45,677 nt of DNA from a virus. The translations under genes and the position numbers were made by a program. Shown here piece after piece: positions 7,742 through 13,810 of the stretch. The notes beneath the pieces are model-generated. The model did not search any database. It had not been told where the DNA came from and saw only the letters and a program-made list of their open reading frames with translations. How positions within the stretch are numbered: position 1 is the stretch's first letter; each line of letters starts with the position of its first letter. The stretch is from positions 1 to 45,677 of the IMG/VR virus record IMGVR_UViG_3300048586_000887; one strand, given 5' to 3'.

Positions 7742-9910
7742 CTAGCCGCGGACGGTCTTGTAGGCGGCCCCGCCGCGACGGATGGCATCGAGCGTCATGG
7801 CCGAGGCCTGCCGGGCGATCTGGCCTGACAGCATGCGCAGCCGGACCTCGACGCCGGCATCGGCACCGCGGGCATCGATGGTGATGTTGGTGGTGATGGC
7901 GGCGCCGGCCGGCGCCGTGCCGTTCGGCAGAACGGTGCCGCCGCGGTCCGGCACGAACCATTCGGGCCCGCGCTCGCCGACGATATAGGGCTGGCCCGCG
8001 ACGACCGGACCACCCTCGGCGCGGAACAGCCCACCGAGCCAGGAGCCGATCCCATCCATCCAGCTGCTGGCGCCGAGGCTGTTCAGGCCGGTGGAGACGG
8101 CGTTCCCCAGCGGCTCGGTGATGGTCTTGCGGGCGATGACGCGGGCGATGTCCTGCAGCAGGCCCTGCATGACCTTGGAGAGCTTCTCGCCTTTGACGAT
8201 GGCGTCCTCGAAGGCGCTGGAGAAAGTCAGGCCGAGCTCGCGGACGGTGTCGGAGGTGCGCGACGCGCTCTCCTCGACGCGGCGCTCGGCGCGCTCCAGC
8301 TCCTCCATCGCGGCGACCCCCTCGCGCTGGACGGTGTCCTCCGGCACCGGCCGGCCGGCGCGCTCGGATCGCTCCACCAAGCTGGAGAGAGCGGCAATGC
8401 GGCGCTGGTAGCGCTCATAGGCGGTCTCGTTGTTCTGGATGAGGCGCTCGCGCTCACGCAGCAGCTCGTTGAGCTCCCGCTCAGCCTCGCGCGCCTCCCG
8501 TGCGCCCTCATTGCTGGCACGGCGGACGGCGGCGACGCGCGGTTCCAGCCGCCGCAGCGCCTCGTCGCGCTCTTGGAGCGCCAGGGTCTCGAGGCGGGTC
8601 CGCTCGGCCGCGGTGACGCTACCGGCGGCCTCCGCCTCGCGCAGGCGGCGGACGCGCTCCTCGTATTCCCGGTTGATCCGGAAGCGGTCGTCGAGGTCGC
8701 GGGTGAGCTCCTGGACGTCCTGCGTCGCGCGGCGCCGGCGGGCCTCGGCCGCGGCGGCGGCCGCGGCCTCCTGCTCCGTCCGCTGACGCTCTCCGGCGGC
8801 CTGCTCACCGCGGGTGATCTCGGCCTGGAGCTCCGTGTATTGGCGCCGCAGTTCCTCTAGCCGGGCAGTGCGATCGACCCCGGCCTGCTGCTCGGCGGCC
8901 CCGACTAGGCCGGGGCGGATGCTGCCGCGGCGGGTCTGGGCGGTGAGGCTGGGCCGGCCGTCATTTTCGCTCTCCAGCCGAGCGATCTGGGCCGCCAGGG
9001 CCTCGGCCTGGCGGCGCATGCCGGCGACGCGGTCTTCCTCGCTGAGGAGGCCGGCACCCTGGCGGACACCGTCCACCGCCCGCGCGGCCGCGGAGAGCGC
9101 CCGGGCCAGCGCGTTGGACAGGCCGATGGCGCGGTCGAGCTGGCCGAGGAAGTTTTCCGTCGACGCCGTCAGCTGCCCGAAGGCGCGGCCGAGCGAGAGC
9201 GGCGCCTTGTCGAGCTCGGCGCCGAGGCGTTCGGTCGCGCGCAGCAGCGCCGGGAACACGCGCTCGGCGGTGAGCTTGCCCTCCGAGCCGAGTTTTCGGA
9301 GCTCGCCGATGGAGACACCGAGCTCGCGCGCCAGGCCCTCGGCCAGCAGCGGCATGGCCTCCAGGATAGAGCGCAGCTCGTCGCCCTGCAGGACGCCCGA
9401 GGCCAAGGCCTGGGCCAGCTGCAGGGTCGCGGAGGAGATCTCGCCGGTCGACGCCCCGGAGACGATGGCGACGCGCTGGAGGCCGGTGACGAGGCGGACC
9501 ACCTGGTCAGAGGTGGCCCCGATCTCACGGGCAGCGATCGAGAAGCGCTGGAAGGCGTCAACGCTCTCCGACACCGCGACGCCGGTGGACAGCGCGTTGC
9601 GGTACAGCGCCTCGTAGACCGAACTCGCCCGTTCCACCGAGCCGGTGGCGTTCTGCAGTCGGGAGAGGCTTTGTGTCAGCGCATCGCCGGCCTGGACCAG
9701 CGCGCGAGCCGCGACCGCCACGCCAGCAAGCTGGATGCCGCGGGTGGCGACGTCCAGCAGGTCGAGCGAGCGGGAGGCGCGCTCGGCACCGCCCTTGATC
9801 TGGTCGAGGGAGCGCTGGCCGGTCTCGCCGACCTCGCGCAGCTCGGCCTTGACCCGGGCGGCATCGTCCAGCGAGAGGCGGACCGAGACGCGGCGGGTGG
9901 CGTCGGCCAT
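7742..9910 (-). CDS. Tail tape measure protein
   Basis: A 722-residue protein. Residues about 60-260 match the TMP N-terminal domain seen in tape measure proteins: RLQNATGSVERASSVYEALY, AREIGATSDQVVRLVTGLQR, SGASTGEISSATLQLAQAL and GELRKLGSEGKLTAERVFP. Residues about 290-570 are highly charged and likely coiled coil (RRRRATQDVQELTRDLDDRF, EREARELNELLRERE-style sequence). The C-terminal 150 residues contain glycine-rich stretches and a GGPVVAGQPYIVGERGPEW block common near the C-end of these proteins. Tape measure length sets tail length; this predicts a fairly short flexible tail. It follows the frameshifted chaperone gene by 29 bases, the conserved order in siphoviruses. Confidence 0.92.
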   Translation of the reverse strand: MADATRRVSVRLSLDDAARVKAELREVGETGQRSLDQIKGGAERASRSLDLLDVATRGIQLAGVAVAARALVQAGDALTQSLSRLQNATGSVERASSVYEALYRNALSTGVAVSESVDAFQRFSIAAREIGATSDQVVRLVTGLQRVAIVSGASTGEISSATLQLAQALASGVLQGDELRSILEAMPLLAEGLARELGVSIGELRKLGSEGKLTAERVFPALLRATERLGAELDKAPLSLGRAFGQLTASTENFLGQLDRAIGLSNALARALSAAARAVDGVRQGAGLLSEEDRVAGMRRQAEALAAQIARLESENDGRPSLTAQTRRGSIRPGLVGAAEQQAGVDRTARLEELRRQYTELQAEITRGEQAAGERQRTEQEAAAAAAAEARRRRATQDVQELTRDLDDRFRINREYEERVRRLREAEAAGSVTAAERTRLETLALQERDEALRRLEPRVAAVRRASNEGAREAREAERELNELLRERERLIQNNETAYERYQRRIAALSSLVERSERAGRPVPEDTVQREGVAAMEELERAERRVEESASRTSDTVRELGLTFSSAFEDAIVKGEKLSKVMQGLLQDIARVIARKTITEPLGNAVSTGLNSLGASSWMDGIGSWLGGLFRAEGGPVVAGQPYIVGERGPEWFVPDRGGTVLPNGTAPAGAAITTNITIDARGADAGVEVRLRMLSGQIARQASAMTLDAIRRGGAAYKTVRG

Positions 9911-9939: not shown

Positions 9940-10634
9940 TCAGGGTCCGGCGGGATCAGTGCGCCGCGCAGCGCTGCCAGCGGCGAGGCCTATGCGCATG
10001 GCCAGCAGCAGTTCCGCCGCGCCCCAGCCGGAGGCGCCCATCTCGCGGGCGGTGGAGAGCGCCGCCGGCATGTCGAGGTCGAGGCCCGCCATGGTTGCCG
10101 TGGCGCAGGTGGTGCCGGCGGCCCAGGCCGCGGCGCCCTCGACGCTGGCTGGGGCGTGGGCGGCGTAGGGGCAGGCGAGGCCGCAGTCGCGGTCGAGCGC
10201 CGCGCAGCCGCGGCAGTAGTCAGGACCCTGGCCGAAATGCCATTCGGCCCGAGCCCTTAGCCGTTTCCCTCCAGGGCCACGGCGGCGACCGGGCCGGTGG
10301 CCCGATCCCAGAAGGCGGCCGCCATCTCGTCCATGTCCATCAGCCGCTCGACGGCCTCGGGGGACAGCGGCAGAGGCTTGCCGGCGGCATCGCCGACGCC
10401 CTCCCAGGCGGTGACCGCGTGGCGGGCGAGCGCCTTGACGAGGAAGGCGAAGGACAGGCCGCGCGACATGTCAGGATCGAGATCGGGATCCGCAATGCGG
10501 ATCGCAGCCAGCCGGCGCGCGGCGGCGGCCTGCGCCGCGGCCATGACCGCGGTCGTCACGGGGCGGATCTCCACGCGGACGCCGCGCGGCAGGTCGAGCC
10601 AGTACGGCTCGACCGGAAGGTCGAGTGTGAGCAT
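9940..10634 (-). CDS. Tail assembly chaperone, -1 frameshift fusion (gpGT-like)
   Basis: A second frame runs from the slip site at 10263 to the stop at 9942-9940 with no ATG, GTG or TTG near its beginning, so it appears to be made only by -1 frameshifting. The fusion would be about 231 residues: 124 from the first frame, then 107 starting RLRARAEWHFGQGPD. The added part has a cysteine cluster (CRGCAALDRDCGLACPY), a helical middle (GWGAAELLLAMRIGLA) and ends RRTDPAGP. In lambda and many relatives the longer GT form binds both tape measure and tail tube, and the G:GT ratio matters. The window shows the site and the frame; frameshifting itself is inferred. Confidence 0.85.
10257..10634 (-). CDS. 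Tail assembly chaperone, zero-frame product (gpG-like)
   Basis: The ATG at 10634 gives 125 residues, beginning MLTLDLPVEPYWLDLPRGV and ending ALEGNG. It is a soluble, mostly helical protein with an Ala-rich middle (AVMAAAQAAAARRLAAI). Position before the tape measure gene and the slippery heptamer at its 3' end identify it as the G-type tail assembly chaperone, which coats the tape measure protein and recruits tube subunits. A longer open frame reaching 11408 is antisense to the inserted acetyltransferase gene and is rejected. The tail tube gene, its normal upstream neighbour, lies 2.2 kb away because of an inserted plus-strand block. Confidence 0.85.
   Translation of the reverse strand: MLTLDLPVEPYWLDLPRGVRVEIRPVTTAVMAAAQAAAARRLAAIRIADPDLDPDMSRGLSFAFLVKALARHAVTAWEGVGDAAGKPLPLSPEAVERLMDMDEMAAAFWDRATGPVAAVALEGNG
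10263..10269 (-). promoter_or_regulatory. Slippery heptamer GGGAAAC for -1 ribosomal frameshift
   Basis: On the minus strand the end of the chaperone gene reads GAG GGA AAC GGC TAA. This places G GGA AAC in the X XXY YYZ register required for tandem -1 slippage, two codons before the zero-frame stop. Lambda G-T uses the closely similar GGGAAAG. Shifting by -1 enters the 107-codon open frame that ends just before the tape measure gene. Confidence 0.85.
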
Positions 10635-10940
10635 CAGATTCAGGGTCCTTATGACGAATCCGCATCTGCCTGCTGGCGTAGAAGCGGCCAAAGTCCAGAC
10701 GGTGACGGCAAAGAGCGAACGACCGACGCACGGGCGCCGTGAACGACTAAGCTGCCTTTGCCTCTCCGCAGACGAGTCCGGTCTTGGCCGGTAGCGGAAC
10801 GGCTGCTTTGAGCGCTCACAGTCGAGAAGCGGGCCCAGGCTTGCCGCCAGGCACTGCCGGCTTTGACCGTAGGCAGACAGGCTCGTCACTGGATTGGCAG
10901 GAATCGAGGCCTGTGCTTTCTCCTGAGTAACCGAAGGAGA
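10635..10940. other. Gap between chaperone and inserted acetyltransferase gene; no gene seen
   Basis: These 306 bases lie between two divergently oriented starts. No credible gene is seen. A TTGACC at 10863-10868 could be a -35 element for the plus-strand gene, but the bases 17 further on (TCACTG) are a poor -10, so I do not call a promoter. An AGGAG at 10935-10939 is the likely ribosome binding site of the acetyltransferase. Confidence 0.5.
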
Positions 10941-11429
10941 ATGTCCTTGCCCTCGATGGTGGATCCCGCAGACGGGATGGTGAGTTTCCAACGAGCGCTG
11001 ACCGAAGGGGATGTCAGGGTGCATCCCGGTGAGGTGGATCCCACGCTTGGGGTGTTCTTCGATAACCCCCAGGGCACCAGGCGCATGACCGTGGTCCGGA
11101 TCAACAAGGAGGGGATCGTTGAGGCCTTCGCGGTCGTTACCCCGGTCGAGCCGTACCGTGGCCTGCCCGTCCACCAAGTCGGTTACGCCGTGCCGCCGCA
11201 GTTCCGGGGCAAGGGCTACGCAAAAGCCATCCTTGAGGCCACGATCGCCGAACTTAAGGAGGGCATGATCAGGGCCGGGAAGAAGTCCTTCTGGGTCGAG
11301 GCGATCGTGGATGCCACCAACCTGCCGTCCAAGGGTGTCGCCAAGGCGGTGCTGTCGAAACAGGGCAAGCCTACCAAGGACGACCGCTCCGGCACCCCGG
11401 CGATCCAATACCTACGAAAGATCGCCTAA
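10941..11429 (+). CDS. GNAT-family N-acetyltransferase-like protein (insertion in tail operon)
   Basis: The product is 162 residues if it starts at ATG 10941. AGGAG at 10935-10939 is very close to that ATG; TTG 10947 or ATG 10956 are alternatives with the same frame. The acetyl-CoA binding motif A is clear: GYAVPPQFRGKGYAKAILEA (RGKGYA is the Q/RxxGxG/A loop). It is preceded by beta strands with VVTPVEP and followed by WVEAIVDATNLPSKGVAKAV, matching the GNAT motif B region. The substrate is unknown. It is on the strand opposite to all flanking tail genes and is followed by a hairpin, so it is likely an independently expressed cargo gene (moron). It could be a toxin of the GNAT type, but no partner antitoxin is adjacent. 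Confidence 0.75.
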   Translation: MSLPSMVDPADGMVSFQRALTEGDVRVHPGEVDPTLGVFFDNPQGTRRMTVVRINKEGIVEAFAVVTPVEPYRGLPVHQVGYAVPPQFRGKGYAKAILEATIAELKEGMIRAGKKSFWVEAIVDATNLPSKGVAKAVLSKQGKPTKDDRSGTPAIQYLRKIA

Positions 11430-11439
11430 CTCGCGCGTT

Positions 11440-11464
11440 GCCGCCGGGCTGGATCCCCGGCGGC
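11440..11464 (+). terminator. Hairpin after the acetyltransferase gene
   Basis: GCCGCCGGG (11440-11448) pairs perfectly with CCCGGCGGC (11456-11464) around a 7-base loop, 11 bases after the acetyltransferase stop. There is no T-run, so termination is plausible but not certain. Confidence 0.45.
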
Positions 11465-11773
11465 ATGCAACCCACATCCTCAGCGACGTCCCGCCCGACC
11501 ATCAGACCCTCCGCCAGCGGCTCCGCCGCGGCGGTGGCGCGACCTCGGCGATCTTCCCAATGCGGGTCCTATGGCAGCCTGTGGAGCAGCGTCGGCCGCC
11601 ACACCGGTCGCCATGGCTCTGGCTTCCCGAAAGAGCCTAGCGGGTGTGTCCGGGAAGGCTTCGGAGGTGCGAGGCAAGCCAGCGGAGCCAGCTCCGCGGC
11701 TCGGCTTGGTGCTACGGTGACAGCGGCGTGCGAGCCGTTAAATTGCGTGGCCGTTCCAGTGGTTCAGGGCTCG
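11465..11773. other. Gap between the two inserted genes; no gene seen
   Basis: About 310 bases follow the hairpin before the HslV-like gene. The plus-strand frame stays open from 11438 into that gene, but its composition is proline/serine/arginine-rich and looks non-coding. No clear promoter motif was recognised; because of the upstream hairpin, the second gene may have its own promoter here. Confidence 0.4.
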
Positions 11774-12682
11774 ATGACCAGCTGCCTGCTCGTGAAATCC
11801 TCCAAGCGGCTAGTGGCCGTGGCCGACGGCAGGCTGTCTCGGGACGATAACAGCCAAAGCTTCAACGAGACCCGCAAGCTCCGGGAGTTCGAAGTTTCCT
11901 ACCAGATCCCGGTGTTTGACAGGGGGCGGTTCCACAGCTTCAGGAGGTACCGGAGCGAGCCATGGTACCTGGCATACGCGGGCACGCACACCGTGACCAC
12001 CGAGATCATCGACCTGTTCCTGCAGCGGATCGGCAGCCTGTACCTAACCCGGCACGAGCAGGGACAGCACGCCATGCTGTCCCACTCCACCCTGACGTCA
12101 GGCGTGTTCACCGACGACTACAATTTCGACCAGGAGGAGCTCCTCAAAATCCACGGCCGTGATGTCTTGCAGGAGCTGGTGGACGCGTTTGAAATCCGGG
12201 GATCCGAGAACTCCGAGAATCGCCGTAGCCGTCCGGACTCCGAGTTCATTCTGTTCGGCAACGAGGAGGCGTCTGGGGATTATAAGGCCTTCGTCGTGTC
12301 GGCCGACGAGAACGGTTACAGCCCAGGCGCTCGTCTCCGGATCAAGGCGGACCCGGTTCTCGACGGGCAACTGGCGAGCATCGGGTCGGAAATCGTCAGG
12401 ACTGAGGTCTATGCCGACGAGGCCCTGATGAGGGGGCTGGAAGGGTGGAAACAGGACGAGGACTACTACGCTGGATTGGATAGCGTGCTGGCGAAAAGAA
12501 CAGGTGGGTCGCTCCTGCCATCGCCTCCCACGACGGCATGGAGCATCAACCAGGTCGGCAAGCGGTTTCTGCAGCTCCTCTGCACCACAGCCGATCCTAG
12601 CGTCGGCGGGAGGATGATCTTGGCCGATGGCGACTGGTCTAAAGAGATCCAGCTGAGAGCGTTCGATCCGCCGAGAAAATAA
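11774..12682 (+). CDS. HslV/proteasome-like Ntn-hydrolase-fold protein (insertion in tail operon)
   Basis: From ATG 11774 the protein has 302 residues and begins MTSCLLVKSSKRLVAVADGR. If Met1 is removed, Thr would be residue 1 and Asp of VADGR would be residue 17, the spacing of the catalytic Thr1 and Asp17 of proteasome beta subunits and HslV. A basic residue is found near position 33 (TRKLREF, compare KVRRL in HslV), followed by a block AYAGTHTVTTEIIDLF resembling the HslV AGFAG helix start. The C-terminal 130 residues are not recognisable. GTG 11747 and 11759 are alternative starts but would bury the Thr. No AAA+ unfoldase partner lies nearby. The fold and nucleophile are inference from the pattern; biological role unknown. 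Opposite strand to the tail operon, so a cargo gene. Confidence 0.55.
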   Translation: MTSCLLVKSSKRLVAVADGRLSRDDNSQSFNETRKLREFEVSYQIPVFDRGRFHSFRRYRSEPWYLAYAGTHTVTTEIIDLFLQRIGSLYLTRHEQGQHAMLSHSTLTSGVFTDDYNFDQEELLKIHGRDVLQELVDAFEIRGSENSENRRSRPDSEFILFGNEEASGDYKAFVVSADENGYSPGARLRIKADPVLDGQLASIGSEIVRTEVYADEALMRGLEGWKQDEDYYAGLDSVLAKRTGGSLLPSPPTTAWSINQVGKRFLQLLCTTADPSVGGRMILADGDWSKEIQLRAFDPPRK

Positions 12683-12853
12683 ACCCGGAAACCCGATGGG
12701 GAGGCCGAGCTTTCCTCGTCAGCAACGAGACGGATGGATCAGCCGGCTACCAGCTAGGTCTTGGACAGGTTGGGCGCGAAGCGGACGTGGCATTCGCGAA
12801 CTATGGACCGGTGGCATCCGTTCAACATCCCAATCGGACATCGTGGTGAGTAA

Positions 12854-13810
12854 TCAGGCATACTCCGTCCCCGCCTGCTGGTTCTTCAGCACGGCCGTCA
12901 TCATGCGCGTCGCAGTCGCGTTGAATGCGGCTCTGAACTCGAAGCTCGCCTCCACGCCCGCCGGCCCTTCGATCGGCGTCTTGGCGAGCGCCAGGTAGAC
13001 CTCATGCAGCGTGAAGGTGAGGCTGCGGTTCGCGTCGATGGTGAAGGCAAAGGCGAACTCCGCCGCGGTGCCATTCTGCGCCTGCGTCAGCAGCGTGGTG
13101 TCCGCGAAGCGCGCGGTGATCTGGCCGGTGGCGCGCGCGATGCCGGGATCGGCGCCTTCGATCTTTCGGTCGGCGCGGATGGTCCGCACCGCCTCCACGC
13201 TGTTGCTGTAGTTCAGCCGCGCACCGGTGACCTGGGCCAGGGCGGAACCAGCACGGGTGATCGATCCCTGTGCCTTGTGGAAGGCGGTGTAGGCGGCGGC
13301 GACCGGCGTGCCGCCCGACGATGAGCCGGAGCGCGTCGAACCCTGCGCGATCAGCTTGATCGTCGCGGTCGCCGGGCCGGTCGGCGAGAAGTCGATTTCC
13401 AGCGCATCGGCACGGATGCCGGTGCAGACGTCGTAGCTCGGGACGTCCGGGTAACCGATCTCGATCGCCTGCGAGGGCAGCGTCGCCGCCCCCGAGCCAA
13501 AGGTATGCGTGTAGTTCGGATTGGTGCCGGTGGTGGTCGGCGCGCCCAGTAGCAGGCGCAGCCAGTGGCCGATGTTGATCAGGTCGACCGGGACGACGAC
13601 ATCGCCCTCGACGGTCACGGTGTCGAAGAACGGCGCGGCGGGATCGCGATTGCCGCCGAGGCCGATAACGTCGGCATCCAGCAGCGGCTGCTCGGCGCCG
13701 AGGTTGCAGGAGAGGAAGGGCACGCGCCGCCAGTTGCCGCCCGGCGCGGTGCCGTAGGTGACCTCGGGAATCATGAGCAGGCGCGAATTCGCGCCGATGG
13801 CACGGGGCAT
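12854..13810 (-). CDS. Major tail tube protein
   Basis: A 318-residue protein starting MPRAIGANSRLLMIPEVTYG, a beginning typical of siphovirus tail tube subunits (a start similar to the N-terminal IPE.TyGt motif). The middle has HTFGSGAATLPSQAIEIGYP, and the sequence is beta-rich with few charged clusters, as expected for a protein forming stacked hexameric rings. It follows the tail terminator gene and, but for a 2.2-kb insertion, would precede the tail assembly chaperone. The stop lies 171 bases from the end of the inserted HslV-like gene, and the two are convergent. Confidence 0.85.
   Translation of the reverse strand: MPRAIGANSRLLMIPEVTYGTAPGGNWRRVPFLSCNLGAEQPLLDADVIGLGGNRDPAAPFFDTVTVEGDVVVPVDLINIGHWLRLLLGAPTTTGTNPNYTHTFGSGAATLPSQAIEIGYPDVPSYDVCTGIRADALEIDFSPTGPATATIKLIAQGSTRSGSSSGGTPVAAAYTAFHKAQGSITRAGSALAQVTGARLNYSNSVEAVRTIRADRKIEGADPGIARATGQITARFADTTLLTQAQNGTAAEFAFAFTIDANRSLTFTLHEVYLALAKTPIEGPAGVEASFEFRAAFNATATRMMTAVLKNQQAGTEYA

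Follow-up and report, generated by a model that had tools for sequence, protein, structure and literature searches.

Prophages of the P2/P4 group, Vibrio and the Bacillales carry hotspots of 1–5 kb between two conserved genes that are rich in anti-phage systems (PMC9122126). The late operons of temperate phages are also known to contain morons that exclude other phages, such as HK97 gp15 and Pseudomonas Tab (PMC10884400). The proteasome-like family comprises HslV, Anbu and 22 further homologues, including the phage-borne PPH and AAH; these two are stand-alone proteins with no assigned function or AAA+ partner (PMC8665760). The 2021 survey of the family reported no genomic context suggesting a function for its orphan subfamilies (PMC8665760).

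Here we analyse a virus record, the window (the whole stretch of 45,677 nt), in which a putative proteasome-like gene lies within an insert in the tail operon. Similar to a P2/P4-type hotspot, the insertion site is a small locus, of about 1–5 kb, bounded by two conserved phage genes; its contents turn over rapidly and include many defence systems, with metabolic or toxin cargo now and then. It differs in lying inside the late tail operon, between the tail tube and tail assembly chaperone genes, with mostly antisense cargo; it belongs to Acetobacteraceae siphophages and is filled in about 97% of loci. HK97 gp15 and Pseudomonas Tab are comparable as extra genes of temperate-phage late clusters that benefit the lysogen, sometimes through phage exclusion, but they are single small genes in fixed places, whereas the present slot has dozens of unrelated fillings of up to 7 kb. 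Prophage diversity and defence hotspots are already known as a kind; what is new is the site of this one, for which we found no earlier description in open-access text.

A hypervariable slot between tail genes

The late genes of the window run on the minus strand. On the phage strand, the slot is flanked on the left by the tail tube gene (12854–13810, −), the product of which is 47% identical to annotated Rhodobacter phage tail tube proteins, and on the right by the tail assembly chaperone gene (10257–10634, −), with 37–38% identity to annotated chaperones of Rhodobacter phage relatives. The next core gene past the chaperone region encodes the tape measure protein (7742–9910, −; tblastn to annotated tape measure proteins). 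Because tube and chaperone genes are adjacent in the annotated Rhodobacter phage relatives and in four Acetobacteraceae loci, the window must carry an insert, which extends for 2,219 bp from the chaperone start to the tube stop (10635–12853; length measured as the gap between tblastn-anchored gene ends). The G+C content is 0.60–0.67 across the insert, compared with 0.70–0.76 in the flanks. Its content is two plus-strand genes, encoding a GNAT N-acetyltransferase (P0001) and a second protein (P0002, hereafter protein 2). The initial annotation had described these two genes as inserted antisense between normally neighbouring tail genes; both reading frames were recovered at the same positions, and the adjacency in relatives bears out the insertion.

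Using the tail tube protein as a query, we collected 160 loci, 80 from viral contigs and 80 from genomes, the latter nearly all of Acetobacteraceae (Roseomonas, Neoroseomonas, Falsiroseomonas, Siccirubricoccus, Roseococcus and others). The chaperone gene was present in 139 of the 160, and the junction between the two genes exceeded 300 bp in 135 of these 139 (median 1,614 bp, maximum 7,142 bp; cargo of 0.67–7.1 kb). By comparison, the tube gene and its immediate upstream neighbour were 12–37 bp apart in 156 loci. The four empty loci have 13 bp between the genes (L035) or adjoining genes (L130, L134 and L146), and the slot is likewise empty in Rhodobacter phage RcMeacham (12 bp) and in Nostoc and Synechococcus phages, in which the genes overlap. 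The 69 genome-derived inserts formed 55 DNA clusters at 70% coverage and 54 at 30%. Prophages of one genome had no cargo in common (0 of 39 within-genome pairs), and cargo was shared in 2 of 189 pairs whose tail tubes are at least 97% identical. According to an approximate gene caller, 92 of 135 inserts hold antisense genes only, 19 sense genes only and 24 a mixture. The insert of the window is unlike all others at the DNA level. Taken together, these observations identify the tube–chaperone junction as a hypervariable cargo slot, a conclusion that we regard as practically certain. This slot is also the more remarkable finding, ahead of the gene pair through which it came to light.

Several loci of this tail module can occur in a single genome. 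Falsiroseomonas tokyonensis K-20 has six (L086, L089, L110, L124, L147 and L154), suggesting heavy polylysogeny, and its five comparable inserts all carry different cargo.

Conflict systems and other cargo in the slot

Scanning representative cargo proteins with PADLOC and Pfam identified Lamassu/LmuB-like ATPases (L074, L086 and L043), IetS with an AAA partner (L067), a TIR-NLR (L048), PD-T4-6/MADS-like kinases (L095 and L143), a ZacB-like protein (L147), a caspase (L006), SIR2-STAND (L077) and GAP1 (L117). Further matches, recorded as tallies only, were to DO-GTPases, ABC-3C middle components and HEPN/Toprim. Clearly non-defensive cargo was also found (MerT/MerR, TauE, SMR efflux and a tripartite tricarboxylate receptor), together with an SBP_bac_5 transporter protein, and the commonest cargo proteins, of about 90–110 amino acids, look toxin–antitoxin-like by eye. 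Given this mixture of defence, metal or transport and toxin–antitoxin-like cargo, the slot is a lysogenic-conversion hotspot that is rich in, rather than limited to, conflict systems. Several cargo types are large proteins that match neither a family nor a defence model. With 55 cargo types among 69 genome-derived inserts, the slot offers anti-phage candidates in a systematic way. To our knowledge, phage defence has been little studied in Acetobacteraceae.

An acetyltransferase with plasmid relatives

The first gene of the insert (10956–11429, +) has an alternative ATG start at 10941; the annotated starts of its plasmid homologues mostly fall near residues 6–10 of the longer form. Its earlier assignment as a GNAT acetyltransferase holds, as the product matches PF00583 above the curated Pfam cut-off (23.8 against 20.7 bits) and contains a Q-F-R-G-K-G acetyl-CoA motif of the Q/RxxGxG/A type; it also matches phrog_1249 in PHROGs. 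It has 32 plasmid homologues, from Pseudomonas, Agrobacterium, Rhodoferax and others, with 36–42% identity over nearly the full length among the 20 matches listed, and none at E ≤ 1e-5 in 249 genomes of the family. PADLOC returned no known defence model for this protein or for protein 2. The plasmid-borne GNATs (for example, on Agrobacterium pAt2 and in Pseudomonas and Rhodoferax) thus share full-length homology and a mobile-element context with the window gene, but their genomic surroundings are different. In the ten neighbourhoods inspected the flanking genes were varied, with toxin–antitoxin, abortive-infection and TIR genes among them, and none had a proteasome-like gene beside the GNAT.

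A probable stand-alone proteasome-like hydrolase

The second gene (11774–12682, +) encodes a 302-amino-acid protein, a candidate divergent stand-alone proteasome-like (Ntn) hydrolase, with the N-terminal sequence MTSCLLVKSSKRLVAVADGRLSRDDNSQSFNETRKLREF. It starts with Met-Thr, followed by Asp18, 16 residues past Thr2, and by Lys35; Gly70 in a YAGTH motif and a Gly-Gly pair at 278–279 are further key positions. Thr2 is the candidate nucleophile. When the Met and a short difference in loop length are allowed for, Asp18 aligns with HslV Asp17; the basic residue opposite HslV Lys33 is Lys35, which becomes Lys34 once the Met is removed. The Thr1/Asp17/Lys33-type layout proposed in the initial annotation is therefore present.

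We found a single convincing homologue, P0003 (L191:1468–2352), in one of the 299 genomes searched from the same family; it remained the only one after a search of 299 genomes of the order. The two proteins are about 28–33% identical (33% over 192 residues, E 2.4e-25). Met1-Thr2, Asp18-Gly19, Lys35, YAGTH with Gly70, PD.EF.LFG and GG278–279 are invariant between them, so that all three residues of the catalytic layout are kept. This includes Thr2, directly after the predicted start codon in both, the loss of which would have counted against an Ntn fold. No relatives of protein 2 were found in the phage or plasmid collections, in which P0003 as a query likewise had no match, in viral contigs (by peptide, alignment or two DNA patterns), among GTDB-derived genome contigs, in 32 genomes carrying related prophages or in genomes sampled class-wide (385) and phylum-wide (398). 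The homologue lies on a contig of 3,038 bp with a mosaic base composition, and an XRE-type regulator (PF01381; L216:360–662, −) is encoded about 1.3 kb away on the same contig; the regulator and the mosaic composition suggest that this is a mobile or accessory region.

For profile comparison, a search with PF00227 gathered 30 HslV loci from Acetobacteraceae and, in addition, Anbu and further Ntn proteins of the stand-alone type. A combined profile was made from 29 HslV sequences together with the Anbu and other Ntn proteins. hhalign placed residues 1–40 of protein 2 on residues 1–40 of this combined Ntn profile, which brings Thr, Asp and Lys into register; the score was 30.6 (pairwise E 0.0012, probability about 20%, over 40 residues only). 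Thirty full column shuffles peaked at 18.8, the 400 that kept Met-Thr at 22.5 and the 144 unrelated cargo proteins at 27.3, and none of the 400 shuffles or 144 controls reached 30.6. P0003 alone aligned in the same register (8–40 on 8–40). Against HslV alone or Anbu alone, scores were not clearly above those of shuffles, and only the combined profile gave a clear separation. The Anbu alignment, with a score not above all shuffles, pairs Gly70 of the YAG(T/H) motif, kept in protein 2 and P0003 and a possible counterpart of the oxyanion-hole Gly47, with the AGN of Anbu, and in a manual comparison the YAGT, GS and GG motifs lie at positions matching those of Ntn proteins.

Could the N-terminal resemblance be fortuitous, and protein 2 an orphan of another fold? 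It matches no family in Pfam, PHROGs, NCBIfam, PADLOC or the PDB, and PF00227 (Proteasome) does not detect it even at E = 1. A single-sequence AlphaFold model reached a pLDDT of 30, and the profile alignment is short. Set against this are the in-register Thr/Asp/Lys match, which exceeds every shuffle and control, the invariance of these residues in so distant a homologue and the placement of the downstream motifs, and we consider a non-Ntn fold quite unlikely. On these sequence features, protein 2 is very probably a divergent stand-alone proteasome-like (Ntn) hydrolase. Of the initial reading as an HslV/proteasome-like protein, the Ntn layout thus stands, whereas the HslV label does not: with no HslU gene in the insert, no Pfam match and such divergence, we ruled out an identity as HslV (ClpQ). 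Protein 2 also has about 20 residues more than HslV between Lys35 and the AG motif; extra sequence, located between strands S3 and S4, likewise marks the family members connectase, PMI-5 and PMI-6 (PMC8665760).

Protein 2 resembles the described proteasome-like family, Ntn hydrolases of MEROPS T1-like type, in having the Thr1/Asp17/Lys33-type layout directly after the Met, with no propeptide required. In agreement with the initial annotation, no AAA+ gene is present within the 2,219-bp insert, a further likeness to the stand-alone phage-borne members already described. PPH, at about 140 amino acids, is far smaller. Additional unassigned, stand-alone Ntn proteins were encountered in Acetobacteraceae genomes (L204, L205, L206, L210 and L212); their scores lie close to the cut-off of the Pfam Proteasome model or under it, and they have a Met-Thr or Val-Thr start and an AD/TD motif layout.

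Adjacent genes without a conserved partnership

The initial annotation had treated the two genes as a pair. They are adjacent, on one strand and in one insert, as would be expected of a two-gene system in which the acetyltransferase marks or neutralizes a protein that the hydrolase processes, or in which a GNAT toxin is kept under control. However, 344 bp (11430–11773) separate them, none of the ten inspected plasmid homologues of the GNAT gene has an Ntn neighbour, the 3-kb contig of P0003 has no GNAT gene, no antitoxin-like gene is present and the pair was observed once. Co-occurrence was looked for in 136 comparable inserts, none of which has either gene, an outcome that the initial annotation had named as counting against its reading and that here counts against the pairing. 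The pairing is not conserved, and because the neighbours of the GNAT vary and no GNAT lies by P0003, the two genes are adjacent but their partnership lacks support. We consider a single two-gene system improbable, slightly more so than a non-Ntn fold for protein 2. An obligate GNAT–Ntn operon was rejected for want of conserved pairing, and a GNAT-RHH toxin–antitoxin module was ruled out because there is no antitoxin gene.

A weak sigma-70-like site (11717–11744, +) lies just 5′ of the second gene; with one such site found and 0.4 expected, it is not significant on its own. This weak promoter-like match and a weak terminator-like match near the cargo genes were dropped as being at chance level.

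Possible roles of the insert

As the two genes sit in an ever-changing cargo slot, they are lysogenic-conversion cargo and one filling of that slot. The best explanation, to which we give a probability of roughly one half, is that the pair is a filling of the Acetobacteraceae siphophage cargo slot in which the second gene encodes an Ntn hydrolase and the likely benefit is protection or fitness of the lysogen. As the locus comparison shows, a lineage of temperate siphophages of Acetobacteraceae (Roseomonas group) keeps the hypervariable slot between tube and chaperone genes, and the cargo turns over without regard to the phage backbone; the conserved tail genes on either side are probably where recombination brings about the exchange. 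The prevailing orientation opposite to the late operon suggests that cargo would use promoters of its own in the lysogen, and that late transcription would shut it down upon induction. In protein 2, Met removal would expose Thr1 as a threonine nucleophile; aided by Asp17 and Lys34, it may cleave, or possibly ligate, a peptide substrate with no AAA+ unfoldase. The GNAT would be a separately acquired acetyltransferase borne on mobile elements.

A defence role had been raised as a possibility from the outset, and it gains ground through guilt by association, as the fillings of the same slot in relatives include known anti-phage systems. By this analogy, the role of the pair would most plausibly be directed against competitors, and the lysogen would most likely be protected from competing phages or have its fitness otherwise raised. 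We see about even odds that one or both of the genes have a defence or anti-competitor role. Alternatively, both could be host-fitness genes unrelated to phage defence, acting, for example, in acetylation of a toxic metabolite or antibiotic or in turnover of damaged or specific host proteins. GNATs often act on small molecules, the plasmid relatives of this one are located in varied accessory regions, and mercury transport, TauE, SMR efflux and the SBP_bac_5 protein share the slot. Conflict systems nevertheless make up a large share of the annotatable cargo, and no metabolic role has been assigned to proteasome-like proteins of the stand-alone kind (PMC8665760); fitness genes of this kind are thus possible but a good deal less likely than the lysogen-benefit reading given above. 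More tentatively, and with no better odds, the slot may be a dedicated, nearly always filled site for defence and conversion, with undescribed anti-phage systems among its dozens of fillings, including an unfoldase-free, threonine-nucleophile, proteasome-like protease that acts as an immune effector. To the family, protein 2 contributes a divergent sequence of a rare kind, found in suggestive surroundings, and the presence of a proteasome-like member in a conflict-rich slot leads to a testable hypothesis, namely a part in inter-phage competition.

Other fillings are noteworthy in themselves. Three loci have large single-gene cargo on the minus strand: L052 (1049–5410; 1,453 amino acids) and L022 (7397–9685; 762 amino acids), both with no PADLOC or Pfam match, and L148 (9181–12075; 964 amino acids), with no PADLOC match and only a C-terminal SEC-C motif in Pfam. 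All three are candidate undescribed conflict genes. The largest insert (7.1 kb) is a five-gene sense cargo (L117:9483–15850, +), the last gene of which has GAP1-N1; DO-GTPase domains occurred in the same scanned set. In Roseomonas rosulenta, a 744-amino-acid slot gene (L145:6288–8522, +) resembles polynucleotide phosphorylase; this may be a housekeeping-type gene in an unexpected place, a phage slot, or else the product of an assembly join. One scanned cargo protein gave an RNase_PH match at 2e-63.
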